Source: a virus | Strand: one strand, 5' to 3' | Length of the DNA stretch: 64,000 nucleotides | Virus record (IMG/VR): IMGVR_UViG_3300042559_000447 | Coordinates: 1-64,000 of that record | Shown: positions 9,909-64,000 of the stretch, one piece after another | Layout: the number at the start of each line of letters is the position of its first letter | Position numbering within the stretch: the stretch's first letter is position 1 | Position numbers and translations under genes: made by a program | Notes under the pieces: generated by a model | The model's database searches: none | The model's input: the letters and a program-made list of their open reading frames with translations, nothing else | Told to the model about the DNA's origin: nothing

Positions 9909-10541
9909 ATGGCATTCGGAAAAAACACAAACTCACTTTACTTTTCTGTTAGAAATGGTAAGGTAATGCGCTACTCAAAAACGCAGGAAGACGGAACTAC
10001 AGTAATCCCAACCAAAGAGGGTCAACCAAGATTTTATTTTGTTTACGATTACATTGAGGGTTTGATCACCGGTTTCAGAACCAAAGAGGGAGAAATCATG
10101 GGTAAAACCAAAATGTTCTTTCAGATTTCTATGTCTGATAACGGAGAGAACTACACTGTAGAATTAGATGTAGACTCAAATTATTTCAGAGCGTTTGCAA
10201 TGACAGTATTGTCTGCTGATTCAAATCATCCTGTAAGACTTGCGCCATTCCAAAGAGAAGAGAACGGTGTAAAGAAAACAGGCTTATTTGTTATTCAGCA
10301 CGGTAAGCCCTGCAAGTACAAGTACACCAAAGAGAATCCAGGTAACATGCCTGACATCGAGGTGACTAAGAACAAAAAAGGAGAGATCGTTGATGTAGAT
10401 AGTGAAAAAAGAAATCATTTCTTGTTCAGTGAATTGAACACTTGGTTATCAGAAGCTATCGGTATGTCTTCTAAAACTTTCAAGGCTCCTGTAGTTTCTG
10501 AAAGTGAATTTGATGACATGGACTCAGATCTTCCATTTTAA
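9909..10541 (+). CDS. ssb: single-stranded DNA-binding protein (phage type)
   Basis: 210 residues ending in an acidic tail DDMDSDLPF, the tip by which SSB proteins recruit partners. The body is beta-rich (SLYFSVRNGKVMRY, GKTKMFFQISMSDNG), consistent with an OB fold. It sits two genes upstream of a YqaJ-type exonuclease, the usual pairing for phage recombination. It would coat single strands during replication and annealing. I infer the OB fold; the C-terminal tip is seen directly. Confidence 0.75.
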   Translation: MAFGKNTNSLYFSVRNGKVMRYSKTQEDGTTVIPTKEGQPRFYFVYDYIEGLITGFRTKEGEIMGKTKMFFQISMSDNGENYTVELDVDSNYFRAFAMTVLSADSNHPVRLAPFQREENGVKKTGLFVIQHGKPCKYKYTKENPGNMPDIEVTKNKKGEIVDVDSEKRNHFLFSELNTWLSEAIGMSSKTFKAPVVSESEFDDMDSDLPF

Positions 10542-12984: not shown

Positions 12985-13102
12985 AAGTTTGTCTCCACCG
13001 TGTGCAATTGTGTAAAACATCTGTACAACCTGTTGATAAACGCCCCCATTTTTAAAATATCCCCCCAACTGCCCCCAGAATTATTACACTGCGCCCAGAA
13101 TT

Positions 13103-13131
13103 CCCCCCTAATTACCCATAGGGGGTTTTTT
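13103..13131 (+). terminator. rho-independent terminator of the early operon
   Basis: CCCCC pairs with GGGGG across a 12-13-nt loop and is followed by TTTTTT. It closes the plus-strand run from 9.05 to 12.98 kb. Confidence 0.75.
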
Positions 13132-13680
13132 ATGTCCCCCTGTCCCCCGAGATATATTGTCCAAATTTAATAGTCGTGCAGGTGGTGGAGTCTAACGCTA
13201 GCGGATCGGGTCGATGGCGTCCAAAAAAATAGACCCCCCGTGTCTAATCGAGTGGACACGCCATTCCAATTTATTGGACAGTGGGCTGCAATTGTCCATT
13301 AAAATAGAAAATCGAAACGGCAAATGTCTACTTTATTGGTGTATACTGTGCTATACGAACAAATGTTAGTTTACCTGAGCGGTCGTATACGAAAAAAGAA
13401 TGAGATAAACAAGCCCAAAAAGAAATGTGACAGAAATGTGACAAAGCATATATATATATAAGGAACACGCGACGCGCGTATGATACTATCTAACAACCAA
13501 ACAACCAAATTTGGATCGTCAGTTTAATGTCACATTTTATTATTTTATATAGTTTTGTCAGAGTTGTGTCACAAAAACATTTTTTTAAAATTGTAAGTTA
13601 TTGATTTTCAATTACTTACAGATTAATTTCAAATTTCTTTAAAAATAATTTAAAAAAGTATTTGGTGATTCAACTTCTAT
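13132..13680. other. candidate replication origin
   Basis: Noncoding. It holds several short repeats: TGGACA/TGTCCA elements at 13158, 13275 and 13293 (with a fourth at 14057), a perfect 11-bp tandem repeat GAAATGTGACA at 13422-13443, and inverted relatives (TGTCACA) near 13528 and 13567. These are followed by about 90 bp of extreme A/T content with a hairpin, TGTAAGT 13592-13598 with ACTTACA 13614-13620. Iterons beside an A/T-rich stretch are the classical origin layout, and the phage codes a DnaA domain IV protein. No experiment supports it. Confidence 0.4.
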
Positions 13681-14400
13681 ACCTATCTTCGTAGTGTTGA
13701 AATAGAGTAAAGGAATTCATAAAGGTAGTGAGTAGTAAGTTTAGCCCGCAAGCGAGACCGAAAAACAGCCGATGGTTGAGGTGGGATTTCTATGTTCGTT
13801 TCACAAGTAAGGATAAGGGGTGACCTATCCCGGCAGGGATACCTATGCCTATAAATCTTGGCAGGTTTGCATACGACCTGGGCGGAAAAAGTATGCAGGT
13901 TTTATAAAGTATTGTACCTTACTAGTATGTGAGATATCAGTGTATTGCCTATCGGATAGGAAACACGCGTGTTGCAGCGTTGACATACTAAACAATAATT
14001 GATATATCCGTTGTGCATTAAAACAAATGCAGTGTGTAGACCGATGTCTAATTTATTGGACAACTCTATGCTATCGTTAGCCGATAGGGGCAACCGCTTG
14101 TAGTAAGCGAGTGTATGTAATAAACCATAATACATACCTGTAGAAGTATGCCTATCCCGTGTGGGTAGTGTGTATCGTAGTGACCAATCTACTTATTCTA
14201 TAAATACCTATAATATTTTATCTTATTCTATTGTTAGGGTGTTGGATATGTTCTGACACCCCAACAACTATTGGTGTACGTGGTATCTAGCGTTTAATTG
14301 TTGACAGGTCAACAGCATCAACTATTTTACCATCGGGGTAGGGACTGAACTATGTCAGTATGTGTCGAACGCACCCTATCCCACAACCATAAAACAAAAA
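13681..14400 (+). ncRNA. hairpin-dense noncoding segment
   Basis: No credible gene, but about ten short hairpins in 700 bp: GGATA/TATCC and ATCCC/GGGAT near 13811-13840; CAGGT/ACCTG near 13863; the palindrome AACACGCGTGTT at 13962-13973; CTATCG/CGATAG at 14070-14087; CGCTT/AAGCG at 14095-14109; GTATGTA/TACATAC near 14113-14137; CTATCCC/GGGTAG near 14151-14167; a 12-bp stem at 14231-14267; GTTGA/TCAAC near 14300; and a 9-bp stem from about 14336 to 14383. It may be a long leader for the accessory operon or one or more free RNAs. Confidence 0.45.
14231..14267 (+). terminator. hairpin, possible terminator or attenuator
   Basis: TTGTTAGGGTGT pairs with ACACCCCAACAA (12 bp with one G-T pair). The loop includes TTCTGACACCCC-type sequence, a variant of the dispersed motif. 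There is no clear T-run after it, so a regulatory hairpin is as likely as a terminator. Confidence 0.4.
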
Positions 14401-14404
14401 CATC

Positions 14405-14800
14405 ATGGAAACATCAAAAGTAATTGTGTCTAACAACGGCACTGATTGGGTATTTACCCTAGAACACGCAAGCAATCGTTCAGTGGACAGATTGCGTAAC
14501 AGGTTTGCCTATGAATTCATGGCTTATTACGACCTATGCCGCAAAATCAAAGCCAAAGGGTTTAATGCTACACTCCCCTTTGATTTCAAGATAGTCAGGA
14601 ACGGGTCTCTTGTGTTGGATACCCAAACTATGATCTCTACTGAGGCTAGACTGACCCTCAAGTTACAAAACAATGAGGTCGGTCGGGCTAGGTTTATCAA
14701 CAAATTAAAACTTATCTCTGACTATGCTCACAGACCGACCGATGAGAAGCAATTGCAAGACCAACTATTGGGTGAGGCAAAAGCACTATTAACCAAGTAA
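14405..14800 (+). CDS. hypothetical protein, first gene of the accessory operon
   Basis: 131 residues, mixed alpha/beta, basic (SNRSVDRLRNRFAYEF, LCRKIKAKGF). Start ATG follows AAAACATC with no Shine-Dalgarno. It lies directly after the hairpin-rich segment and before a tRNA-like minihelix. No family recognised. Confidence 0.65.
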   Translation: METSKVIVSNNGTDWVFTLEHASNRSVDRLRNRFAYEFMAYYDLCRKIKAKGFNATLPFDFKIVRNGSLVLDTQTMISTEARLTLKLQNNEVGRARFINKLKLISDYAHRPTDEKQLQDQLLGEAKALLTK

Positions 14801-14807
14801 TCACCCA

Positions 14808-14860
14808 ACCTACACTACTATAAAGTAGGAGTACTACCTGTTCGAGTCAGGTTGTAGGTT
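14808..14860 (+). ncRNA. tRNA-like minihelix
   Basis: A 53-nt element in the gap between two genes. ACCTACA (14808-14814) pairs perfectly with TGTAGGT (14853-14859), and directly inside lies a textbook T arm: ACCTG, loop TTCGAGT, CAGGT (14836-14852). A short hairpin CTACT-ATAA-AGTAG takes the place of the D arm and there is no anticodon arm. Acceptor plus T arm is the part of tRNA read by RNase P, EF-Tu and the CCA-adding enzyme. It could be a processing signal or a tRNA mimic. The pairing is seen; the function is inferred. Confidence 0.6.
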
Positions 14861-14878
14861 CAACCATAAAACAAAACT

Positions 14879-15061
14879 ATGTCAACCAACATTCATTTCG
14901 TGAAGTGTTATGCCGATGCGTATGACCTCACAGACATCAAACAAGCCAGAAAAGTTAAACGTATGATCAATGCTCGTGAGAGATTTGGTCGCTCATCTAA
15001 TGGCAAGCAAACCAAGTTAGTTAAATTAGGGTACAAAGGGTTCGATTTCTTATCTAGATAA
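14879..15061 (+). CDS. small basic protein
   Basis: 60 residues, strongly basic (ARKVKRMINARERFGRSSNGKQTK), no membrane segment. It starts 16 bp after the tRNA-like element. Size and charge fit a nucleic-acid-binding protein, but no family is recognised. Confidence 0.6.
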   Translation: MSTNIHFVKCYADAYDLTDIKQARKVKRMINARERFGRSSNGKQTKLVKLGYKGFDFLSR

Positions 15062-15308: not shown

Positions 15309-15340
15309 AGCCTCACTCTTTTATTAGGGTGGGGCTTTTT
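15309..15340 (+). terminator. rho-independent terminator
   Basis: AGCCTCACTC pairs with GGGTGGGGCT (10 bp with two G-T pairs) around an 8-nt loop, followed by TTTT. It ends the three-gene unit starting at 14405. A copy of the dispersed motif lies directly after it. Confidence 0.8.
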
Positions 15341-22975: not shown

Positions 22976-23256
22976 AAAAGATATTTAACTACATTAAGAT
23001 GATTCCACATAACCATGTGGATTGGGTTCCTTTTGAACCAAAACCCATGCCTTACTTTACTTTAGATGTAGACGCAAGAGATGACTGGTATGCAAGACAA
23101 CACACAGAACATTGTAAAAAACTAACTCTCAAAAAGCCTCTTAGGGCCAAGATAGATAGAACAATTTGGTTTTTGGTTTATTCGTCGTTTATGTTAGGTA
23201 TTATGTTTCTCACAGAATATCTATTTGAAATGCTGTACAAATATTATCATCCATGA
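22972..23256 (+). CDS. small membrane protein
   Basis: 94 residues with a polar N-terminal 60, then one or two membrane-spanning stretches near the end (IWFLVYSSFMLGIMFLTEYLF). It overlaps the recombinase gene by 4 bp. Function unknown. Confidence 0.6.
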   Translation: MKKIFNYIKMIPHNHVDWVPFEPKPMPYFTLDVDARDDWYARQHTEHCKKLTLKKPLRAKIDRTIWFLVYSSFMLGIMFLTEYLFEMLYKYYHP

Positions 23257-23945
23257 AAAGAGCAGCGATTTACACAAGGGTATCTCACACTAACCAGGTG
23301 GAGGACGGATCATCTATAGAGAATCAAACAGAAAAGTTAAATGCTTTCTGTAAGGTAAAGAACTATAAAATAGTTGCAGACCTGAGCGATGCCGGTATCT
23401 CTGGTAGAAAGTTTGAAACTCGCCAAAACTTCATGAAGATGATGGATATGGCGAAGAATAAACAGATAGACGCTGTAGTTGTTTACTCTCTATCTCGTTT
23501 TGGTAGAAACTTAAAGGATACACTTAAGTGGATTGAATATCTAGAGAAGCTAGGGGTATCGTTCTACACACAAGACTTTCAGGTAGACACCACAACATCT
23601 CATGGTAAACTGATGCTTCAAATGATAGCAGCCTTTGCAGAGTTTGAGTCTAATCAGAGATCTGAACTTATTACATCTGTAATGTCTCATCTTAAGAAGA
23701 ACAAGAAAGTGTACTGTGGTCCTACTCCATTAGGCTTTGATAAAGTTGGAGATGATTTGGTTCCGAACCCCCAGGAACTTTTGATAGTCAGAAGGATTTA
23801 CCGGATGCGAGAAGAAGGCGATCATCTTGAGGTTATAGCCAATACTCTTAATGATGAAGGCTTAATTGGTAAAAAGGGTGGGCGGTTTCAGAAGATGACA
23901 ATATCAAAAATATTAAACAACAGCATTTATAATGAATACAGATAA
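23253..23945 (+). CDS. serine recombinase (truncated large type)
   Basis: 230 residues. The resolvase domain is intact: AAIYTRVSHTNQ with catalytic Ser11, then YSLSRFGRNLKDTLKWIEYL near residue 78, and GKLMLQMIAAFAEFESNQRSE near 120. After it comes the start of the recombinase domain (PLGFDKVGDDL, and a helix-turn-helix-like LEVIANTLNDEGLIGKKGG), but the zinc ribbon and coiled coil of phage integrases are missing. It may invert or resolve DNA rather than integrate. No matching inverted repeats were seen nearby. Confidence 0.85.
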   Translation: MKRAAIYTRVSHTNQVEDGSSIENQTEKLNAFCKVKNYKIVADLSDAGISGRKFETRQNFMKMMDMAKNKQIDAVVVYSLSRFGRNLKDTLKWIEYLEKLGVSFYTQDFQVDTTTSHGKLMLQMIAAFAEFESNQRSELITSVMSHLKKNKKVYCGPTPLGFDKVGDDLVPNPQELLIVRRIYRMREEGDHLEVIANTLNDEGLIGKKGGRFQKMTISKILNNSIYNEYR

Positions 23946-26441: not shown

Positions 26442-26527
26442 ACCAGAGTGGTGGAATTGGTAGACACATGCGGTGGATTTTAATTGGAATTGCTGCTAAA
26501 TTACAGGTTCGAGTCCTGTTTCTGGTA
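26442..26527 (+). tRNA. tRNA-like unit 1 (leucine-type body)
   Basis: Acceptor ACCAGAG (26442-26448) pairs with TTCTGGT (26520-26526). TG follows, then a leucine-like D arm GTG-GAATTGGTAGA-CAC, and a perfect T arm ACAGG-TTCGAGT-CCTGT (26503-26519). The total length fits a long-variable-arm tRNA. However, no 5-bp stem with a 7-nt anticodon loop can be drawn. The best fit is GCGGT/ATTGC around a 14-nt loop containing TTTTAA. It may be tRNA-Leu(UAA) with extra bases or a mimic. Confidence 0.55.
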
Positions 26528-26528
26528 C

Positions 26529-26666
26529 AAAAAGAATTAGAAGGTAAACGTGAAATGAAGAATTGGAGAATAGGAAGCTGATATTAGTATCAGAAGTTCG
26601 CTGGGCTACCCATCCAGACTGCTAAGCAGATAAATCCTCTCACCTATAAGGAATCTAATTCTTTTT
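26529..26666 (+). ncRNA. folded RNA closed by a 13-bp stem
   Basis: AAAAAGAATTAGA (26529-26541) is perfectly complementary to the sequence at 26654-26666. Inside are CTGATA/TATCAG (26578-26593, loop TTAG), CTGG/CCAG (26601-26617) and CTGC/GCAG (26619-26629). The final T-run could also end a transcript. No T arm or gene is present. Confidence 0.5.
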
Positions 26667-26672
26667 TTAAAT

Positions 26673-26847
26673 AGTCAGGTGGCGGAATTGGTATACGCAG
26701 TGGTGTGTTAAATGTGGGAATAGACATAATCCCTAACCTGATTAACCAACCGATACAACATAAGAAATTAGGTTGTTCATTTGCAGGAAGGTTATTCAGG
26801 CTAACTGCTTGTCTTTTATGTAGGTTTGAATCCTACCCTGACTGCCA
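26673..26847 (+). tRNA. tRNA-like unit 2 with encoded CCA and about 90-nt insertion
   Basis: Acceptor AGTCAGG (26673-26679) pairs with CCTGACT (26837-26843), followed by G and an encoded CCA (26845-26847). TG, then D arm GCG-GAATTGGTATA-CGC, and T arm GTAGG-TTTGAAT-CCTAC (26820-26836). Between D and T arms are about 120 nt instead of 23-35. GTGGT (26700-26704) can pair with ACTGC (26804-26808), putting GTTAAA in an oversized loop. An intron at the anticodon is possible; no group I core was recognised. Confidence 0.6.
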
Positions 26848-26898
26848 AGTTAACCCACTAAGACAAGAAACGGGTGACTGCTGGAAAGACAGCAAATT

Positions 26899-27001
26899 CT
26901 ATAGGTAGTTTAACATGGTAAAACACTATGACACTTGTATCGCCTGGTGAGTACTAACCCGAATACAAGAAGAGTATGCTGGTTCAATCCCAGCCCTATG
27001 G
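26899..27001 (+). tRNA. tRNA-like unit 3
   Basis: Acceptor CTATAGG (26899-26905) with CCTATGG (26994-27000); TA; D arm GTTT-AACATGGTA-AAAC; T arm GCTGG-TTCAATC-CCAGC (26978-26994 region). The middle is about 53 nt and holds a 7-bp stem CTTGTAT/ATACAAG (26934-26940 with 26963-26969) around a 22-nt loop instead of a regular anticodon arm. No CCA is encoded. Confidence 0.5.
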
Positions 27002-27076
27002 ACAAAAAATCGTAGTACCGTGAGGGAACAATATGGTAGAAATAACCATAGCAGGTTAAGCGATATCCTGCAACAT

Positions 27077-27146
27077 AGCCAGGTGGTGTAATGATAAACA
27101 CAACCAGTTTTTGGGAGGGTAGCAGGTTTAATTCCTGCCCTGGCTA
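27077..27146 (+). tRNA. tRNA-like unit 4, compact
   Basis: Only 70 nt. Acceptor AGCCAGG (27077-27083) with CCTGGCT (27139-27145), TG, D arm GTGT-AATGATAA-ACAC, T arm GCAGG-TTTAATT-CCTGC (27122-27138). The 20 nt between D and T arms are too few for a normal anticodon arm plus variable loop; only ACC/GGT pairs around a 12-nt loop with TTTTTGG. All other arms are perfect. Confidence 0.5.
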
Positions 27147-27262
27147 CGAGTGGTGAGAACATCAGTTGCAGCCATAATAGATAAGAGGAAAAGCTTTTAG
27201 GAAGCAAGTCCAAATTGATGCGCAAAATGCGAGGTGTGACGAACGGGGAGAGACCCGTACAT
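27147..27262 (+). other. noncoding folded spacer
   Basis: No gene. CATCA near 27160 can pair with TGATG near 27216, followed by CGC/GCG and by ACGGG/CCCGT (about 27243-27259). It is one of the non-tRNA segments between tRNA-like units. Confidence 0.35.
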
Positions 27263-27425
27263 AGTCAGATAGCACAGGAGTGCACACAATAGACCGCAAG
27301 TCTTTTATTACTGAAGGGAGGTAAGCGGACCTTCAGTAGGAGTGGCCAAACGCTGGTGGTACCTTTGCAAGGGTAGATTAGAGAAAACCACAAATGGTGT
27401 GGGGGTTCAAGTCCCCCTCTGACTT
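27263..27425 (+). tRNA. tRNA-like unit 5 with large insertion
   Basis: Acceptor AGTCAGA (27263-27269) pairs with TCTGACT (27418-27424). TA, a very short D arm GCAC-AGGA-GTGC, and T arm GGGGG-TTCAAGT-CCCCC (27401-27417). The 116 nt between D and T arms include ACAC/GTGT at the junction, an 8-bp hairpin ACTGAAGG/CCTTCAGT (27310-27337) and ACCTT/AAGGGT. No normal anticodon stem-loop is found. The 4-nt D loop matches the minihelix at 14.8 kb. Confidence 0.5.
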
Positions 27426-54295: not shown

Positions 54296-57200
54296 CTAGT
54301 CAACAATCTCGTCTGTGATAGTAGTTCCGAATTCGTCTTCCGGCATTTGTTGTTGACCTTGTTGTTCTGGTTGCTCAGATAACAATTCAGATTTAACAAT
54401 TTCCTTCAATTGAGAGATAGCGTCTTTATCTTCATAAAACTCTCCAATTAAATCCCCTAAAACATTTTCCTTCTTGATTTTATCAATCACCGCTTTTTCT
54501 TCGGGGGTCAATTCAGAAAGTCTCTTATTTACAATTACCGGACCAAGTGTTTCCTTTATTACATTGTCAACAGAAGAGTATATCTTTCCGAGCATTTTAC
54601 CAGCAATCACATAACCAAGGAGTTGATTTTTATCTCCATAAGTTATCCTAGATCCGTCTTCATTTCTGTTTTCTGGGCCGTTTAAATCCAATAGTTGTTT
54701 GAAGATATCGCTATCTGACTCAAATATAGAACCTATGATTTCATTTCTCAAAAAGTTTCTTTTATTTCTAAACTCATCCATCTCCTCCTTGTTTAAAGAA
54801 ACTCGGAACAATTCAGTTTCAATTGACTTTGGTACGTCTGGAGGAATAACTTCTTTTACGTTACCGTATGCGAAAGTCAAGTAGATTACATCTTTCCAAT
54901 CTAAATCTTTTTTAGAATTGTTTATCTTCTCATAGATTTGTTTTGTGTAATCGAAAGCCCCACCGTCTTTTGAAATACCTCTATAGTCTCTTCTTGGAAC
55001 GTCTACGCCCATTAGTTCAAAAACAGAATCTAATGTTTTAGGAGTCTGTCTTCTCGGCATTCCTGTGATGTCGTACTGATAAAGATAATTGTTATCAAAA
55101 TAGAAAGGAACCTTTTCCTTTAAACGATTGCTCAGAGTGTTTACAGTAAGTTCTCCAAATCCCATGCTTGCTTTTTCATCTGGTGTAGCCTTGTAGCTAG
55201 ATTCAAACTCTCTGTTGAACTTAGTAAAAGTATTCAAGTGATTTGGGGCAAAAGCAGTAACCACAGTATTAAAATACCCTGCTGCAAAATCAGAAAATGC
55301 ATTTATGTTTCCACTCTTTGTGATTTCAGTTATTGCTGTAAACGCATCCCCTAAGTTTTTAACCATTGTTTGGTCTAAAAGATAAGGGAAAATTAAAGCA
55401 CTACCCATCATCGAAACAGAACCCTCTCCAACTTCTGTATTTATTTTAGATAGATTTATTTTTTCTTCAGATCTGTTTTTTGTTTCAACCTCTGTTTTCT
55501 TCATTGAAAGAATTGCACCAAATACACCAAAGGTTCTCAAGTCAAAAGTCTGATCCCCTTTAATCCAGTCCTTAGATTTATTTTTCTTGCCCCAGTTTCT
55601 CATCAACAATGAAACGTTTATTTGATCAGCCGGCATGAAGTCTTTCTTCCATTGTCTTTCTTTTTCGTCAACCCCTGCGGCAGGAGAAGCCGATCCAGAG
55701 ACAGCGAGATTTTCAATAATTAAAGTAGCAGCATACTGAAGACCTATTGAAATTAGCATTCTAGACATTGCCATATCAGAATCTCTTAGAGCCTTTCTTC
55801 TATCTTCAATTAGTTTTTTCTTTGTGCTTGGATTTCTAGTTTTTTCTATTTCATCCTTAAGTTCTGATGCTTTTCTCATATGATAAATACTAGCAACAAA
55901 AGAAACGGTAGGAGATGCAAATTGAACAAATTCTTCAGCAACGTTTGTTGGAATCTTCTGATAAGGAACAAGAGTTGTAACAGCTGATTTTCCAAGATCT
56001 TCACTTCCGTATGTTTTCTTAACTCCACCAAAGAATTTTTGAATTACGTTCTTATACAATAGACCATCGTTGGCGTAAATCAATCGCATTGCCTCGTCCA
56101 TTGCTGGTTGATTACTATAGTCAGAGTTTAATTTGATAAATATTTCCATTTCTGACATTCCATTTAAGGATGGTTTTTTTTCTTCGCTTAGACCCAATAC
56201 TTTTCCTTGTTCATACAACGCACCAAAGTATGCAGTAGTTCTAAAGAAAGCATCTGGCCCACCCAAAAGTCTAAAGTTTGCTTCAGCAACCGCCCCGAAA
56301 GTTCCTTCCATTGCTCTTAAAATTTTGTCCTTTGTTGGTATCTTTCCAGCTTTGTTTAGTGGATAGTTGTATTTGGTAGCCATTTCCTCTTCGCTCATAT
56401 TACTAAGAGCATAGTCATACAACATACCAAAGGTATCTCTGAATGCCCTGAAACCATTAAATCCTCTTGAGATTTGTAATCCGTTTGCATCCTCAACAAC
56501 AGAACCTTGACTTATTGCTTTCCAACCTTCCTTGAACGCCTGTTTGTATTTACTAGTAATAGATCCATAATAACCGGCTCCTCTGTAGGTAACTCTCTCA
56601 GATTGTTTACCCCTAAGAGCATTAACTTGGTTTCTTGTGATACCAACTCCCGTTGCCACAATGTTCAAAGGCAAGTTGATTAATGTCTTAATCGCACTCG
56701 ATGTTAAGTTGATAACTTGAGAACCAAGAGTCAAGAGGTTACCTCTAACCAAAGTATCATAAAGATCTGTGAAAGAAGAATTTCTAGCATATGGTTTCAA
56801 TGCTTTGTAGAAAGCAATTCTAGCAGCATCATAGTTTTGTTGAGCAACAAAAGCATACTCCAAGTTTGTCATGTTTGGATTGTTTCTGTTCATCTGTGTT
56901 GGATACAATGTTGCTTCTGACTTGGCCTGCTCATACTCTGCTTTCTTTTTGTCCATATCTACAGCCAATATCTTTAATTCTTTTTCTTTAGCTGTTGGAA
57001 TCTTTCTATCTGCCTTGTTGTATTTTTTAATTGCCTCGTACAACTTATACTGACCTTGTTGCTGAGACAATAATTTCATTCTTTGTAAGACACGACCAGC
57101 ATTTGTTCCTGTTTGAACCGCTTGAGCAAATAAAGAAGTTACATCTGTTCCAGCATTCAGACCCTCTTGTATCTTTTGGATAAGGGCAACTAGAGCAACG

Positions 57201-60200
57201 TCCATGTTCTCCATGTCTTTTAGGTCTGACATTAGATCGTTTAGTTCTGTAGGACTCAATTCATTTAGAATAGAAACTACCTCTCCGAGTGTTCTTTGGA
57301 TTGTTACTGCATCTTGTTCAATGCTTCTAGCTAATCCTTGGAATTCGTTTGATTCTTTCTCTAGTATTTTTGCTACTGTTTGTTTTGTTCTTGCTTGGAA
57401 GAACTCTGTTACGTCTTGAGGAGTGAATCCTGCTTTTATTAAGCCGTAGTAAATGTCTTGTTCTGAGACCCCGGCCGCTCTTTGCTGATTGATGATGTCT
57501 TCTATCTCTTTATCTTGCGGATCAATCTCTTCTTCGATCTTCTCCTCTGTTGCGCCTTCACCAAAGATAGTATTGTAGATAGACTTCATCTGTGGGTTCA
57601 ACTCTTTACCAAGATTACCCAAGCCCAAAGCAGTGTAGATTTCTGTTAACCACGCTTTAAACTTTTCAAACACCGCTTTTAGTTTGTTATTTGGAGCAAC
57701 GCCCTCGTAAAGGTATCTCTCAAAGCCTCTAGCAAATGTCTCAGACGCATTAGTATTCCAATCAGTTTCACCAGCAAAGTCTAGAACGGTCTGCTTTTCT
57801 TCATCAGAAAGGTAGTTTTCTAAAACGTGAGCCATCTCGTGTAAAGGTGAAGATACGTTAGGGTCAGTAACTGCATAAATAATTGCTGTACCGTCGTCTT
57901 TCAAATGCACCGCTGCACGAATAGTTCCTGGATCTTTTTGGAATAAAGTATAGTCTTTTAATAAAACCTGATCATTTTTATAGGTTATGTAAACATTTCC
58001 TGGGGTTTGAGATCTTCCAACTTTTCCATATTGAGCATAGTCAACGACATTCTTAATGATAACACCATCTGGGGCTTTGTTTGGGTCTTTTACTTTAGTT
58101 TTAACCCAATTAGTTAACTCCACAGGACTAAGACCAAATCTATTCTGAAGTTTTTCAAAATCATTGTCATTTAAACCCAACAAAAGAATATCTAAATCTC
58201 TTGTTGTAAGATTATAATTTTGACTACCTTTTCCAAATAAATTGTATACAGTGCTGACATTTTGCCAATCGTTACCCTTAGCGTCTATAACAATTGGATT
58301 TTCTATTTTTAAATATGCCCTTCTTATGTTGTTTCTAGCGTCAGAATTATCTTTTAAATAAGAAAACGCCTTAGTTGGTAGGTCCGAATAATAGATTGCC
58401 CCACCAATATCTCCAGCATTATGATCCAATACACCGTAGTTTTCTTTTCCGTAAAGTTTTGCAGTACCCCTAAATGCATCTAAAGGTTCTCCGTTTTCAT
58501 CAAGCACTTCAGAATTTCCAAACCAATTCTTGAATTCTTCGCTTTTTGTATCCTTAGCTAGTTTGACTTGTTCTTCTAATTCTTCAAGCAATTGTTCTCT
58601 TATTGCTTTATTTTCCTCTTGTTTTTTTGTTAACTGGTCTTTGAATGGAATTTTTTCTCCTATCCTTTTGTTTTTAATAAATTCAATAGGATCTTTTATA
58701 ATTGCCGAATTTGCTTTTTCTGGATTTATAACAACATATTCGTTCTCAGATACACTAAAAGCATCGTAACCAGCATCTTTGAACATTTGCGACCACAATT
58801 TATTATAATCCCACTTTATAAAATCTCCCATTCTAAGCCTAGCTTCGTTCAATGTCATACCCTCGAAGTCCTTTAACTTAGACAAAAATAAATCATAGTA
58901 TGGGTTTTGTATAGAATTTTCTTCTAGTGCTTGTTTTATTTCAAACACAAAGCCTGAAGGTATTCTGTCGTTTACGTTTAAAGAATTTAATTTATTTCTA
59001 TCTACAAATGTTACGGTTTTTCCGTATTCACTTGCCTTGTATGGCACAGGTGTAAAATATATACCCCAGCCATAATTTGCTCTAACTCCTCCTTTTACTT
59101 TATCAGGGTCAAAAGATTTTATTTTTTGATCACCACCATGAAAAACTACACCTTCTTTTGATAATTCAGAAAATAATTTTTGCTTGTTTTCATCCTTCAT
59201 GTAATCCTCAAGAGTAAGTTCTTCAGGCATTAAATCATTTGATAGTTTCACCATCTCCTTATAGATAATATCGGAGTTTGAAAATTCACCACCTAAATCT
59301 CTTCTTGCGATAAAGTCAATTCCCATACCGCTACCGGACACCTCTATCAAATAATTATATTCAATATCTTGAAAAGCCTTTATTAGAGGGTACAACTTAG
59401 AATCTTTTCCTAGTTCGAGAATATCAAAATCATTAAGAGTTGTTTTTCCTATTTCGTATTCATTTTCAATTCTTTCGGAAAGCTTCAAAAGATTTTCTTT
59501 TTGTATTGCTGTTAAATCGCCTTTCGGTGTTGTGGCGTTTATTAATTGTATAATATCTCTCTTTGTTTTAAAATCTGCATCTCTTAGTTTACCCAAAGCC
59601 TCTTTATAATTTTTAACCAACTCTCCAAAATTGCTTTGCATTTCTTCATACGTAGCCGGTCTTTCATATATTAATTCTAAAGCACTTTCCATACTCGAAA
59701 TAAACCCATTCGATTTCATATAAGAAATAGGGTCTGCTTTATACTTTGGATCGGATCTTTTAAAGTTAAAGTTGATTTTTACAGCGTATAGTTTATTTAC
59801 AATATCAGACAATATCAATACGGCTTCCTTGTCCTTATTTAAAAGAGGTTCTATTTTTTCATGCAACTGCTCAATAAGTTCATCTGTATTGTATCCAAAG
59901 CTAGTATACCTATACTCATCAATAAGTTCGTCCGTTATTTTTTGTACGTTTTGGTTATTTGAATTTTCATAAGGAACCATTAATTGACTCAACATTGGAC
60001 CAAGTTCTTTTTCTGAAATAAGGTTTTTTAATCCAATTTGTTTCTTTATTTCATATCTTATAATTCCATTTAATATGTTATTCCTAATCTCTATGGGTTT
60101 AGAGTTAAAACTAAAATCTACTGGTAGATTTATTTTAACATTCTCAAGTTCTGGGAACAACTCAAAAAGAGCATCTGCTTCTAATACATCACCCCAAGTA

Positions 60201-63200
60201 GATACTCCAGGTTGAATATCAACCCCCTCTTTTAATTTAGGATATGCAGGATGAGTATCTCCATACATCCAAATACCATCTTTACTTTGAAACCAACCTC
60301 TAGCAAAATAAACCGTAAGAGGATCTACCCCGTTCTTAAGATCTTCTTCTGCCAATATTTTATCATCCAATGCTCTTCCAGAAGAAAGTTCTGGGTCATT
60401 TTTAACTGTATTCTGAAGAGCGATCCTTCCCTGATTAGATTGAATCACCTGAGACATACCTGCAACAATTGTTTGCTGGTCTATCTTTTCAAATGACAAC
60501 ATTGTTTCCAAGAACACATCGGGATCCAAACCTGAACGAATAGCAGCGAACTCAATCATTGTATTCATCAAGTTTGCAGCGTAGTTCTTTTGTTGTCTTA
60601 GTTTTCTAGGACCGGTAACTTTAGATTTAATTGCTGCAACGATAGGGTTGTCGTTTGGATTTGCAGCATCTGTTCCGTATAACTTTAAATCAAATGCCTT
60701 ATCGAAGGCGGCTGTTTTAAGTCTCTTAATTCTTTCTTTTCTGGTAGATGCAAATGATTCATACTTTTCTTTGAAGTCCATGAATGTGTCATATACACCA
60801 AGAGCATCAGCTTTTTGTTTAGCTATATCTTGTATCTGCTGTTCTGTAAGATTAGTTGTATCTTGTCCTATGATATCTAGAAAGTCTTGTGCAGGAATCT
60901 TTCCTTGTAGGAATCTGATAGCCCCCACTTCTTCTGGCTTATACTCAGTACCCCTAGCTGTCTTAGAAATATTCTGAATCTGTTGCTTCTCCTGTTGTGC
61001 AAGAACAAATTCCTTCGCCTTCATGTTCATCTCACGCTTAGATAAGCCAGCACGAACATCTTTCATCTTTGTATTGTAGAAAGCGTAGGTATTGTTTGCA
61101 GTTTCCTTACCGGTATATTCTCTAGCAACAAACTCGTTTAAACTTTGTCTAAATGCCAACAAATCATTTTTCTGCAATTGTTCATCACCGAACACCTCAG
61201 ACAATACTGACTCGTGATTGATAAGTAGGTTTGCAATGAATGTATCAGCGGCATCTGACATTAAATTAGCACCGTTCAAAAAGTTAAGGTCTGAAGTAGA
61301 GAAAGCCTTTGTAAAGAAATCAGAGGATAACACAGCAGCCTTAACTTTGTTAAACATTGCTGTATTTTCAGTACTCATACTATTGAACTTCTCGATAAGG
61401 GGAGCCATATAGTTTGATACCCTAGCCATACCCTTTTGTCCGTCCGTATTTATCTTTGATCCTCCTAAAAAGAAAGAACCAAGATCCAATCTCATTTTAC
61501 CACCAAACGCATTACGAAGAGCATTCGCAAAAGCATTTGCCTGTGGGTCGTTTGTGTTCACCTGATCAACACCCTCAAACACATCAGAATCAACTTTTTG
61601 ACGATACTGCTTTATCTTACCCATAACGCCAGACGCTGTATTCTTTACTGTGGTTGCGTTTCTCTCGCTAAGTTGATTTACTGTATCTCTACTGTATAAT
61701 AACTTTCCGTCTTTCCAGATTAATTTAGAGTCATCCTCTATACCTAAATTAACCTTAGCAATTTCTTTAGCCTTGTCAGAAGAAAGCATTCCGTTATCTG
61801 TAACCTTTTGCTCTACTTGTGCCTTTAGGTCAGAGTTTACATCTTGCCAAGACTCATTGAATGAGCTGTATCCTTTTGATTGTAGGTTTCCTGTCTTAGG
61901 GTCGTATCTGTAAGTAGCACCTTTCTGAATCTCTCCGTCTGCCTCTACTACATAGAACTCTTCTCCTATGTCTGCTACTCTCTTTTCTACTTCTAGTTTT
62001 TCTTGTTTCTTTGTCTCTTCTACTTTTTCTTGAGGTATCTCTTGTTCTGAGGCCCCCGGCTCTTGTATAGGAGCGTCGCTCATAGGCGCAGGACCTGCTG
62101 GTACAGGAGGCTCTTCAATGTCAGTTACCAACGGACTAGGTTGTGACTTCTGATATTTGTTTTGTTCAATAGCAGCGTCCAACTGTCTGTCCATATCCAA
62201 AATCAAGGGATCAATAGATTGACCTTGTCTTGCTGCAATGTAATCAGTAAACTTTTGTTTTGATTTGACAAGCAAAGCGATATCACCAGGGGCGGTCAAC
62301 ATCAAAGAGGTAATACCAATTACTTCTAACTGACCTTCTTGTGTTGTTAAATCAAATGCCTTTTTAAAGTCGTACCCCTCGTTTGCCATTAAGTCAGCAA
62401 TACCACCAGAAACCTCAGCCAACGTTTCACCGACTGCTCCACTCAAATACTTACCAAGAACATATAACGCTCTGTTTCTTCCCTTGAGTAGTTTCTCCAT
62501 GCTCACTTTGCTCATTCCTGCCTCGTACAAAGACTCCGAAGCAATCTCACCCAATCCACCAGCAGCACTTTGGTCTGCTGCAACGTACGCCCCAGTTTTT
62601 GCTGCGGTTTTAAGTCCACCCTCTACGAATATCTCAAACGCTTTTACTGCTGTACTGTTAGTGCCATATCTTAACTTAAAGAATTCTTTAGCCTTTGTAA
62701 AGTATCTAGATGCAGCAACTACTCCACCTGCCTGATTTCCGATTGCCTCATATGCACCAATCTCAACCATTGCGCCCAAAGTAGGCAATAACCCATAACC
62801 AACTTGTTCACCAATGCTCATCCTAGTTGCTTCCATGTCCTGCTCGCTAACATAGTAGCCGTTCTTCTGCATGAACTCAGCAAAGTTTCCTGCCTCTTCT
62901 GCATAGGTAAGAGCCTGACTAGATTTCTTTAGTCCACCAAATGTATTGATTGCAACATATTGCTCAACACCAGAGGTAAAAGATGCATTCTGTCTCTTTA
63001 ATGGGTTTGAGTTGGTATAGATCCCTTTATTCAAAACGGAAAGTTCTGCTGTCTTTTCAGCAAATAACTTTTGGTTTGACTGTAATGTAATTAATTCTTC
63101 TTGTGAAGGTTGCCCAAAACCAGATGCAACTTTCTTTTCAATCTTTGCAGATTGGTCTAAAACCATTTGGCGAAGATCTTCAACATCATTAAATAGGATG

Positions 63201-64000
63201 TTTCTTTCTTTAACCATTGCACCTAAAAGATTTGAATTATAATATTCCTTTGAGTATTTTTGATTTGCCTTTGCGAATGCTGCACTTGTAACAGCTGGAT
63301 CCATTGGAAGCCTTGTTGTTGGATCATAAATAATCCCAGTAGCAATGTCTTCGTCTTTCTGTAACTTTTCAATTACTGATTTCTGCTGTTGAATTCTAGC
63401 ATTTACTTCGTTAAGTTTATCTACATTTGTGAATCCACTTACTGTCTTTTCAATTGCCTTTTTCTCAGCGTTTAATTGATCCAACTTAGTATATTCTTGT
63501 GATATTTTTTTGAGGGGCTCAGATAACATCTCAAAGCCTTTTTTATTCATATCGAATTGATACGAATTACCCTCTTTTGCACCGAGAGTAAAATCTGATT
63601 CTATTGCCTCTTGGTTCTTTTGTAAATCTAATTCAGCAAACTTTTGTTTTCTGTAAGCATCACGCTTTCTATTTATAAAGTTAAAGGCTTTCTCTTCGCT
63701 ATAACCTAGACTCTGAGCCGTAGCAAATACTTGCTCTATACCTACAGTATACTTTGTATTGAAGTCTCCCTCTTTTTCTAAACGATAAGCAGCGTCCTTG
63801 GCTATGTTATCAGACAACTCACCAATCTGTAAATCAGTTAAGCCATACTCAGTGGCTATTGTATTGGTAAGTTCTGCGTCTGGAAATTCTTGTTGAGTTG
63901 GTTGTACTGCTTTCTTTTCTGTTCTAGTATCAAACTCTCTATTTAAAACAAGACCCCTGTCTAATAACTCTTTTTGGTTTTGTTTTCTCCACTGTTCAAA
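54296..64000 (-). CDS. giant polyvalent virion protein (partial)
   Basis: More than 3,230 residues; the frame is open to the window edge, so the true start lies outside. A TTG at 63817 is not a convincing start because 61 more codons precede it. Counting from that TTG, an ADP-ribosyltransferase-like domain lies near residues 1550-1680 (FHGGDQKIKSFD, GWGIYFTP), a second near 1775-1900 (FRGTAKLYGKENYG, GGAIYYSD), and a zincin protease near 1960-2070 with HEMAH at 1993-1997 and ETFARGFERYL. The C-terminal half has a LPD38-type membrane-interacting region (VRGNLLTLGSQVINLTSSAI). Large polyvalent proteins are ejected with phage DNA to modify the host. Confidence 0.8.
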   Translation of the reverse strand, partial: FEQWRKQNQKELLDRGLVLNREFDTRTEKKAVQPTQQEFPDAELTNTIATEYGLTDLQIGELSDNIAKDAAYRLEKEGDFNTKYTVGIEQVFATAQSLGYSEEKAFNFINRKRDAYRKQKFAELDLQKNQEAIESDFTLGAKEGNSYQFDMNKKGFEMLSEPLKKISQEYTKLDQLNAEKKAIEKTVSGFTNVDKLNEVNARIQQQKSVIEKLQKDEDIATGIIYDPTTRLPMDPAVTSAAFAKANQKYSKEYYNSNLLGAMVKERNILFNDVEDLRQMVLDQSAKIEKKVASGFGQPSQEELITLQSNQKLFAEKTAELSVLNKGIYTNSNPLKRQNASFTSGVEQYVAINTFGGLKKSSQALTYAEEAGNFAEFMQKNGYYVSEQDMEATRMSIGEQVGYGLLPTLGAMVEIGAYEAIGNQAGGVVAASRYFTKAKEFFKLRYGTNSTAVKAFEIFVEGGLKTAAKTGAYVAADQSAAGGLGEIASESLYEAGMSKVSMEKLLKGRNRALYVLGKYLSGAVGETLAEVSGGIADLMANEGYDFKKAFDLTTQEGQLEVIGITSLMLTAPGDIALLVKSKQKFTDYIAARQGQSIDPLILDMDRQLDAAIEQNKYQKSQPSPLVTDIEEPPVPAGPAPMSDAPIQEPGASEQEIPQEKVEETKKQEKLEVEKRVADIGEEFYVVEADGEIQKGATYRYDPKTGNLQSKGYSSFNESWQDVNSDLKAQVEQKVTDNGMLSSDKAKEIAKVNLGIEDDSKLIWKDGKLLYSRDTVNQLSERNATTVKNTASGVMGKIKQYRQKVDSDVFEGVDQVNTNDPQANAFANALRNAFGGKMRLDLGSFFLGGSKINTDGQKGMARVSNYMAPLIEKFNSMSTENTAMFNKVKAAVLSSDFFTKAFSTSDLNFLNGANLMSDAADTFIANLLINHESVLSEVFGDEQLQKNDLLAFRQSLNEFVAREYTGKETANNTYAFYNTKMKDVRAGLSKREMNMKAKEFVLAQQEKQQIQNISKTARGTEYKPEEVGAIRFLQGKIPAQDFLDIIGQDTTNLTEQQIQDIAKQKADALGVYDTFMDFKEKYESFASTRKERIKRLKTAAFDKAFDLKLYGTDAANPNDNPIVAAIKSKVTGPRKLRQQKNYAANLMNTMIEFAAIRSGLDPDVFLETMLSFEKIDQQTIVAGMSQVIQSNQGRIALQNTVKNDPELSSGRALDDKILAEEDLKNGVDPLTVYFARGWFQSKDGIWMYGDTHPAYPKLKEGVDIQPGVSTWGDVLEADALFELFPELENVKINLPVDFSFNSKPIEIRNNILNGIIRYEIKKQIGLKNLISEKELGPMLSQLMVPYENSNNQNVQKITDELIDEYRYTSFGYNTDELIEQLHEKIEPLLNKDKEAVLILSDIVNKLYAVKINFNFKRSDPKYKADPISYMKSNGFISSMESALELIYERPATYEEMQSNFGELVKNYKEALGKLRDADFKTKRDIIQLINATTPKGDLTAIQKENLLKLSERIENEYEIGKTTLNDFDILELGKDSKLYPLIKAFQDIEYNYLIEVSGSGMGIDFIARRDLGGEFSNSDIIYKEMVKLSNDLMPEELTLEDYMKDENKQKLFSELSKEGVVFHGGDQKIKSFDPDKVKGGVRANYGWGIYFTPVPYKASEYGKTVTFVDRNKLNSLNVNDRIPSGFVFEIKQALEENSIQNPYYDLFLSKLKDFEGMTLNEARLRMGDFIKWDYNKLWSQMFKDAGYDAFSVSENEYVVINPEKANSAIIKDPIEFIKNKRIGEKIPFKDQLTKKQEENKAIREQLLEELEEQVKLAKDTKSEEFKNWFGNSEVLDENGEPLDAFRGTAKLYGKENYGVLDHNAGDIGGAIYYSDLPTKAFSYLKDNSDARNNIRRAYLKIENPIVIDAKGNDWQNVSTVYNLFGKGSQNYNLTTRDLDILLLGLNDNDFEKLQNRFGLSPVELTNWVKTKVKDPNKAPDGVIIKNVVDYAQYGKVGRSQTPGNVYITYKNDQVLLKDYTLFQKDPGTIRAAVHLKDDGTAIIYAVTDPNVSSPLHEMAHVLENYLSDEEKQTVLDFAGETDWNTNASETFARGFERYLYEGVAPNNKLKAVFEKFKAWLTEIYTALGLGNLGKELNPQMKSIYNTIFGEGATEEKIEEEIDPQDKEIEDIINQQRAAGVSEQDIYYGLIKAGFTPQDVTEFFQARTKQTVAKILEKESNEFQGLARSIEQDAVTIQRTLGEVVSILNELSPTELNDLMSDLKDMENMDVALVALIQKIQEGLNAGTDVTSLFAQAVQTGTNAGRVLQRMKLLSQQQGQYKLYEAIKKYNKADRKIPTAKEKELKILAVDMDKKKAEYEQAKSEATLYPTQMNRNNPNMTNLEYAFVAQQNYDAARIAFYKALKPYARNSSFTDLYDTLVRGNLLTLGSQVINLTSSAIKTLINLPLNIVATGVGITRNQVNALRGKQSERVTYRGAGYYGSITSKYKQAFKEGWKAISQGSVVEDANGLQISRGFNGFRAFRDTFGMLYDYALSNMSEEEMATKYNYPLNKAGKIPTKDKILRAMEGTFGAVAEANFRLLGGPDAFFRTTAYFGALYEQGKVLGLSEEKKPSLNGMSEMEIFIKLNSDYSNQPAMDEAMRLIYANDGLLYKNVIQKFFGGVKKTYGSEDLGKSAVTTLVPYQKIPTNVAEEFVQFASPTVSFVASIYHMRKASELKDEIEKTRNPSTKKKLIEDRRKALRDSDMAMSRMLISIGLQYAATLIIENLAVSGSASPAAGVDEKERQWKKDFMPADQINVSLLMRNWGKKNKSKDWIKGDQTFDLRTFGVFGAILSMKKTEVETKNRSEEKINLSKINTEVGEGSVSMMGSALIFPYLLDQTMVKNLGDAFTAITEITKSGNINAFSDFAAGYFNTVVTAFAPNHLNTFTKFNREFESSYKATPDEKASMGFGELTVNTLSNRLKEKVPFYFDNNYLYQYDITGMPRRQTPKTLDSVFELMGVDVPRRDYRGISKDGGAFDYTKQIYEKINNSKKDLDWKDVIYLTFAYGNVKEVIPPDVPKSIETELFRVSLNKEEMDEFRNKRNFLRNEIIGSIFESDSDIFKQLLDLNGPENRNEDGSRITYGDKNQLLGYVIAGKMLGKIYSSVDNVIKETLGPVIVNKRLSELTPEEKAVIDKIKKENVLGDLIGEFYEDKDAISQLKEIVKSELLSEQPEQQGQQQMPEDEFGTTITDEIVD

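Follow-up and report, generated by a model that had tools for sequence, protein, structure and literature searches.

Half-tRNA minihelices between genes of a tailed phage and its relatives as candidate phage t-elements

Between two genes of a tailed phage lies a short element that reproduces the acceptor stem and T arm of a tRNA while dispensing with the anticodon arm, and half-tRNAs of this kind stand before various genes in related viruses, such that host tRNA-trimming enzymes probably cut the viral messages at these points. The element occupies positions 14808-14859 of the window, by which is meant the 64-kb stretch analysed from a 71.7-kb virus record. The interpretation that we favour, with rather more belief than doubt, is that of a phage ‘t-element’: the acceptor/T half of a tRNA, placed between co-directional genes just 5' of a start codon, at which host RNase P, and perhaps RNase Z, would set the 5' ends of the mRNAs.

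By gene content the virus is a tailed phage, with a portal protein (of distant crAss-like likeness), a DNA polymerase, a primase/helicase and a ribonucleotide reductase; the window also holds a minus-strand ORF of 3173 aa (54296-63817), which is unusually long given a phage genome of 72 kb. Searches for the nearest relatives by DNA, or by the two proteins that flank the element, gave no match in a phage collection, in single-sequence IMG/VR scans or in genome contigs, and the exact letters of the minihelix had no match in IMG/VR. Relatives were recovered solely through alignments of the DNA polymerase, DUF932 and the 15372 protein in IMG/VR scans, the last two alignments bringing in related phages, L111, L156 and L157 among them.

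The minihelix sits between an ORF of 131 aa, ending at 14800, and one of 60 aa, starting at 14879, with the end of its helix 19 nt 5' of the latter ATG (Table 1). In full it runs ACCTACA CTACTATAAAGTAGGAGTACT ACCTG TTCGAGT CAGGT TGTAGGT TCAA, in which the 7-bp acceptor and 5-bp T stem form a single helix. The perfect 12-bp acceptor-T helix reported in the initial annotation is borne out, all 12 pairs being Watson-Crick, with A14807-T14860 as a thirteenth; the length of 53 nt that was given for it holds if T14860 is counted, the helix itself being 52 nt long. The same account described a short hairpin in place of the D arm and no anticodon arm, with which the minimum-free-energy fold agrees, being exactly the described shape (-17.3 kcal/mol; z -1.95, a modest value). 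It also noted a 4-nt D-like loop common to unit 5 of a tRNA-like cluster further along the window. Such a loop is indeed present there (GCAC-AGGA-GTGC, 27272-27283), but the likeness counts for little, since it does not extend to the letters and relatives do not conserve the D-like hairpin.

Table 1. Coordinates of the minihelix, its neighbours and other features of the window.
Feature	Position	Strand	Basis or remark
Second three-way junction; 9-bp stem GGGGTAGGG/CCCTATCCC, hairpins ACTGA-ACTATG-TCAGT and TGTGT-CGA-ACGCA	14335..14382	+	
First copy of leader CAACCATAAAACAAAA, 5' of ATG 14405	14384..14399	+	
Upstream ORF, 131 aa, without known family	14405..14800	+	~31% identical homologue in L111/L156/L157
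Predicted RNase P site	14807/14808 (or 14806/14807)	+	inference
Acceptor-stem 5' strand ACCTACA	14808..14814	+	sequence, fold
Short hairpin CTACT-ATAA-AGTAG (5 bp/4 nt) at D-arm position	14815..14828	+	not conserved among relatives
Linker GAGTACT, without anticodon arm	14829..14835	+	sequence, fold
T arm ACCTG-TTCGAGT-CAGGT (14836-14840/14848-14852; loop 14841-14847)	14836..14852	+	canonical TTCRANY loop
Acceptor-stem 3' strand TGTAGGT	14853..14859	+	sequence
Tail T-C-A-A, discriminator position followed by C-A-A	14860..14863	+	T14860 able to pair with A14807
Unstructured A-rich leader CAACCATAAAACAAAA, 5' of ATG 14879	14861..14876	+	
Downstream ORF, 60 aa, without known family	14879..15061	+	
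Serine recombinase	23253-23945		window
Five tRNA-like units (26442-26526, 26673-26843, 26899-27001, 27077-27145, 27263-27424)	26442..27424	+	cluster

A strict search, calling for a perfect 5-bp stem around TTCRANY, a perfect 7-bp acceptor and an insert of 9-35 nt, finds a single match in the window; 1500 Markov shuffles gave no match, and 0.00027 per strand are expected analytically. It is the combination of tRNA-specific letters and pairing that rules out chance for the minihelix, and the case rests on these because the fold energy alone is modest. The element is not a tRNA in the sense of the Rfam family, which has a cloverleaf with anticodon arm: RF00005 gives no match at 14808, neither at the gathering score nor at E<=10, and ARAGORN calls no tRNA there. 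As for a minimal RNase P substrate, the coaxial acceptor/T helix of ~12 bp and the T loop are in place and the 3' RCCA is not, the tail here being TCAA. There is no intrinsic terminator, that is a stem and then a T run, at 14808-14860, where the stem is followed by CAACCATAAAAC; the same scan found terminator-like sites at 15309, 13104 and 13250.

In three related phages, L111, L156 and L157, the gene for a homologue of the 131-aa protein is followed at the same place by a minihelix of the form TCCTATG CCATAGGGTTGCC GTCTG TTCAAGT CAGAC CATAGGA, which ends 6 nt 5' of the next ATG and is followed by a tail of GCAA in L111 and GCCA in L156. Between these and the window, five of the 12 pairs are changed on both sides, none on one side only, seven are unchanged and none is broken. 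The initial annotation had named retention of the flanking genes with loss of complementarity as the outcome that would speak against it; what is found instead is that the relatives keep both the upstream gene and the pairing, by way of five compensatory double changes. Such conservation points to selection on the structure, which is one of the marks of a t-element. The gene 3' of the minihelix in these phages is not homologous to the 60-aa ORF of the window, and because the following genes differ in this way the minihelix is a feature of the junction and not of the gene that comes after it. The minihelix of L111 is separated from the upstream gene by a terminator-like hairpin, and may therefore be part of the leader of its own transcript there, as opposed to a cut site between co-transcribed genes.

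Minihelices recur at other gene junctions in related phages. In L164 they occupy the gaps before four consecutive genes (4735; 5135; 6134; 6679), one to a gap; of these genes 5135 is of the DUF932 family and 6134 is homologous to the genes that in relatives correspond to the 18339 gene of the window. Gaps with a clear upstream stop measure 59-76 nt and consist essentially of the minihelix and a leader of 19-31 nt. Three of these elements are kept in L171 (before 1244, 1887 and 2885), and G014 has a minihelix at L125:3417-3462, 5' of a 37-codon ORF, together with a longer tRNA-like element 5' of the preceding gene, the counterpart of which in G023/G013 has two double changes in the acceptor. 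Every minihelix has a coaxial helix of 12-13 bp (split 7+5, 7+6 or 8+5), with inserts of 11-28 nt and loops of the form YTCRNNY, and the elements end 6-31 nt 5' of ATGs, adjoining gene boundaries in the manner of t-elements. A shape descriptor, applied to 2.6 Mb, finds seven elements near an ATG, whereas three shuffles of that sequence give none; the weight is on the shuffles and not on the count, as the descriptor was built after the first examples had been seen. Many relatives with the same core genes are without the elements, the function of which is therefore not essential to the group.

Other structures in these phages may be mentioned alongside. A hairpin at L122 7038 matched the shape and was dropped, having one loop mismatch and lying inside predicted ORFs. 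At L125 955-1015 (G014) there is a 61-nt tRNA-like unit with a D arm and a T arm and without an anticodon arm, which does not adjoin a gene start. Long leader hairpins (TATACCCC..GGGGTATA within an outer stem), followed by an A-rich leader and an ATG, are found at L128 ~10250-10330 and L145 ~13130-13210, and are a different leader structure within the same phage group.

Taken over all the related elements, the acceptor, T arm and tail are under selection and the decoding half is not. When every perfect intergenic T arm is taken with no acceptor required, and an acceptor is then sought within 180 nt, a full 7/7 acceptor accompanies 19 of the 21 T arms as compared with 17% of random positions (p ~ 4e-13), and an acceptor that is all Watson-Crick accompanies 12 (1.9% at random). 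Among 28 tRNA-like elements the length of the middle lies anywhere between 13 and 142 nt, just five elements being of ordinary tRNA size, and the discriminator is followed by C (C74) in 26 and, two further on, by A (A76) in 23; the N-C-N-A tail is present in 21, most commonly as CAA and as the full CCA (NCCA) in two. It is the acceptor/T-arm/tail part of a tRNA that is contacted by RNase P, RNase Z, the CCA-adding enzyme and EF-Tu. An ORF starts within 30 nt of 10 of the 28 elements (13% baseline, p = 0.002), most of the others being in clusters, and within 30 nt of four of the five short ones (p = 0.001). The tRNA-like traits of the elements are the T loop and the tail, and they share tails with the tRNA-like clusters; descent from a tRNA gene is a possibility, for which no parent tRNA was identified. 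The cluster in the window follows suit, its five units having fully paired acceptor/T halves and irregular middles of 38-140 nt, with just two of them reaching the Rfam tRNA cut-off. The minihelix had been described as separate from this cluster; the separation is real, but the cluster has the same design of an intact acceptor/T half and an irregular middle. Relatives G020/G025 have six comparable units (L131 916-2184).

The surroundings of the 131-aa gene have features of their own. Its two bracketing leaders are an exact 16-bp direct repeat, one copy before each ATG, as if element, leader and gene were a module. Upstream of the gene, and followed by the first copy of this leader, is a second three-way junction (14335-14382), which had been missed in the initial annotation; a comparable one is present in L111 (605-668). 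These two, and a junction at 13213, are possible kin of the minihelix. For the junctions at 14335 and L111 605 kinship is uncertain, since neither has a canonical T loop and a loose junction search with no T-loop rule is by itself too permissive, giving a match in 31 of 60 shuffles of 2.5 kb. The structure at 13213-13265 (stem GATGGCG/CGCCATT, hairpin TGTCTA-ATCGAG-TGGACA, tail CCAA) has a minihelix-like shape and is not 5' of a gene. The region 13068-14404 (~1.3 kb) abounds in hairpins and CCTATC repeats and has no convincing genes, nor did any emerge from 13.0-14.4 kb when TAG or TGA was treated as recoded; L111 has a similar non-coding stretch 5' of its homologue of the 131-aa gene. A promoter-like TTGACA-16-TATTTT lies at 14301-14328, its predicted start being close to the first base of the 14335 junction.

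Under the proposed mechanism, host RNase P would read the 12-bp helix and T loop as a minimal pre-tRNA and cut at ~14807/14808, so that the 5' end of the downstream mRNA would be paired and followed by an A-rich leader (~20 nt) and the ATG. RNase Z or exonucleases may in turn release an RNA of ~53 nt at 14860/14861, which would be able to receive CCA. In effect, neighbouring genes on one transcript would be uncoupled in their expression or stability. The RNase P cleavage and CCA addition that we infer are consistent with a 12-bp helix, a T loop and an N-C-N-A tail; a processing signal is the best account, and agrees with both the known t-elements and the behaviour of the enzyme. In this respect, RNase P and RNase Z are the enzymes that cut t-elements (PMC11658184, PMC4326828), RNase P seemingly can dispense with the D loop and needs the T loop (PMC4919913), and its substrates include mRNAs and the phage M3 and C4 RNAs (PMC11143913).

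Chief among the rival explanations is an uncut structured leader, in which the minihelix would shield the downstream mRNA at its 5' end or keep the ribosome-binding leader insulated, the tRNA likeness being no more than a borrowed stable fold. The short distance of 6-31 nt between elements and ATGs would suit it, as would the promoter-like sequence, from which a transcript would start at about the 14335 junction, the terminator-like hairpin 5' of the minihelix in L111 and the plain long leader hairpins that G015/G024 have at other genes. We consider it unlikely, however, in that a plain stabiliser needs no TTCRANY/YTCRNNY loop, no length of 12-13 bp and no N-C-N-A tail, all of which recur across the phages. 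That the element is a site for a phage or host RNA-binding protein (a tRNA-binding or -modifying enzyme, EF-Tu or the product of the adjacent gene) exerting translational control is improbable: the 131/130-aa gene is indeed flanked on each side by a structured element, both in the window and in L111, but the L164 elements precede unrelated genes, including that of the DUF932 family, and just the generic top half is kept, while the predicted fold of the 131-aa protein is of low confidence, too poor for a structure search and uninformative.

It is quite improbable that the released ~53-nt RNA is itself the product, as a tRNA mimic or a decoy for tRNA-targeting defences or tRNA enzymes. Phage tRNAs do evade such defences (PMC11555353) and clusters of tRNA-like units whose anticodon regions are irregular do occur in these phages, but a decoy has no need of a position just 5' of start codons or of recurrence in consecutive gaps, and one without an anticodon arm cannot mimic the substrates of anticodon nucleases. 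Decay of a tRNA gene that has lost its anticodon arm would be in keeping with the other tRNA-like units of the genome that have damaged anticodon regions; its acceptor and T stems should erode too, yet the intact acceptors and the double changes that restore pairing refute decay for the group of elements as a whole and make it very improbable for the minihelix. The earlier claim of a functional use, and not of tRNA decay, is well supported by the 19 T arms with full acceptors and by a coaxial length that stays at 12-13 bp throughout the minihelices. An element acting at the level of DNA, namely a site of attachment or recombination that arose from a tRNA gene and served as the entry route of gene cassettes, is hardly credible. 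A serine recombinase is present and the 16-bp direct repeat lies 3' of both elements, but the compensatory changes indicate RNA structure, and the idea of an attachment site found no support when tested, the 3' half of the minihelix being present just once in the window.

The phage t-element interpretation has its best-supported model for function in the t-elements known from mitochondrial mRNAs of plants (cox1 and ccmC among others) and the element 5' of the Haloferax 5S rRNA, which are likewise tRNA-like, at gene boundaries and non-decoding, with a homology to tRNA that is putative for the phage elements. In contrast to these, the phage elements are of 44-59 nt, without an anticodon arm and often without a D arm, and are repeated in consecutive gaps, their cleavage being predicted. 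The 12-bp coaxial helix, T loop and 3' overhang are those of the acceptor/T-arm model substrates of bacterial RNase P (pre-tRNA minihelices, external-guide-sequence design), which are laboratory constructs, whereas the phage shapes are natural and lie between genes. The M3 RNA, antisense C4 RNA and T4 dimeric pre-tRNAs are phage RNAs handled by host RNase P, as is predicted here, but are discrete small RNAs or true tRNA precursors and not gaps between genes in mRNA. Further afield, mascRNA/MALAT1 has a non-decoding tRNA-like fold processed by RNase P and RNase Z, but is eukaryotic, at the 3' end of a long noncoding RNA, with an anticodon region that is diverged but present; the plant-virus tRNA-like structures (TYMV, BMV) also have viral RNA mimicking tRNA, but in RNA viruses, at the genome 3' end and in some cases aminoacylated. 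Although t-elements are already known from plant mitochondria and Haloferax, no phage t-element was described in the open-access literature searched.

The punctuation of mRNAs by tRNAs is standard in animal mitochondria and takes the form of t-elements in those of plants. It is conceivable, at somewhat short of even confidence, that a lineage of dsDNA phages punctuates its polycistronic mRNAs with anticodon-less tRNAs, using host RNase P (and RNase Z) as the mRNA processor much as mitochondria do with whole tRNAs. If true, the same logic would have arisen in bacteria in a phage version cut down to the half that RNase P reads, and it would account for some of the phage tRNA-like genes that are unable to decode. 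The elements would then be a natural library of minimal RNase P substrates, and the oddly shaped phage ‘tRNAs’ missed by annotation programs would have a testable use.
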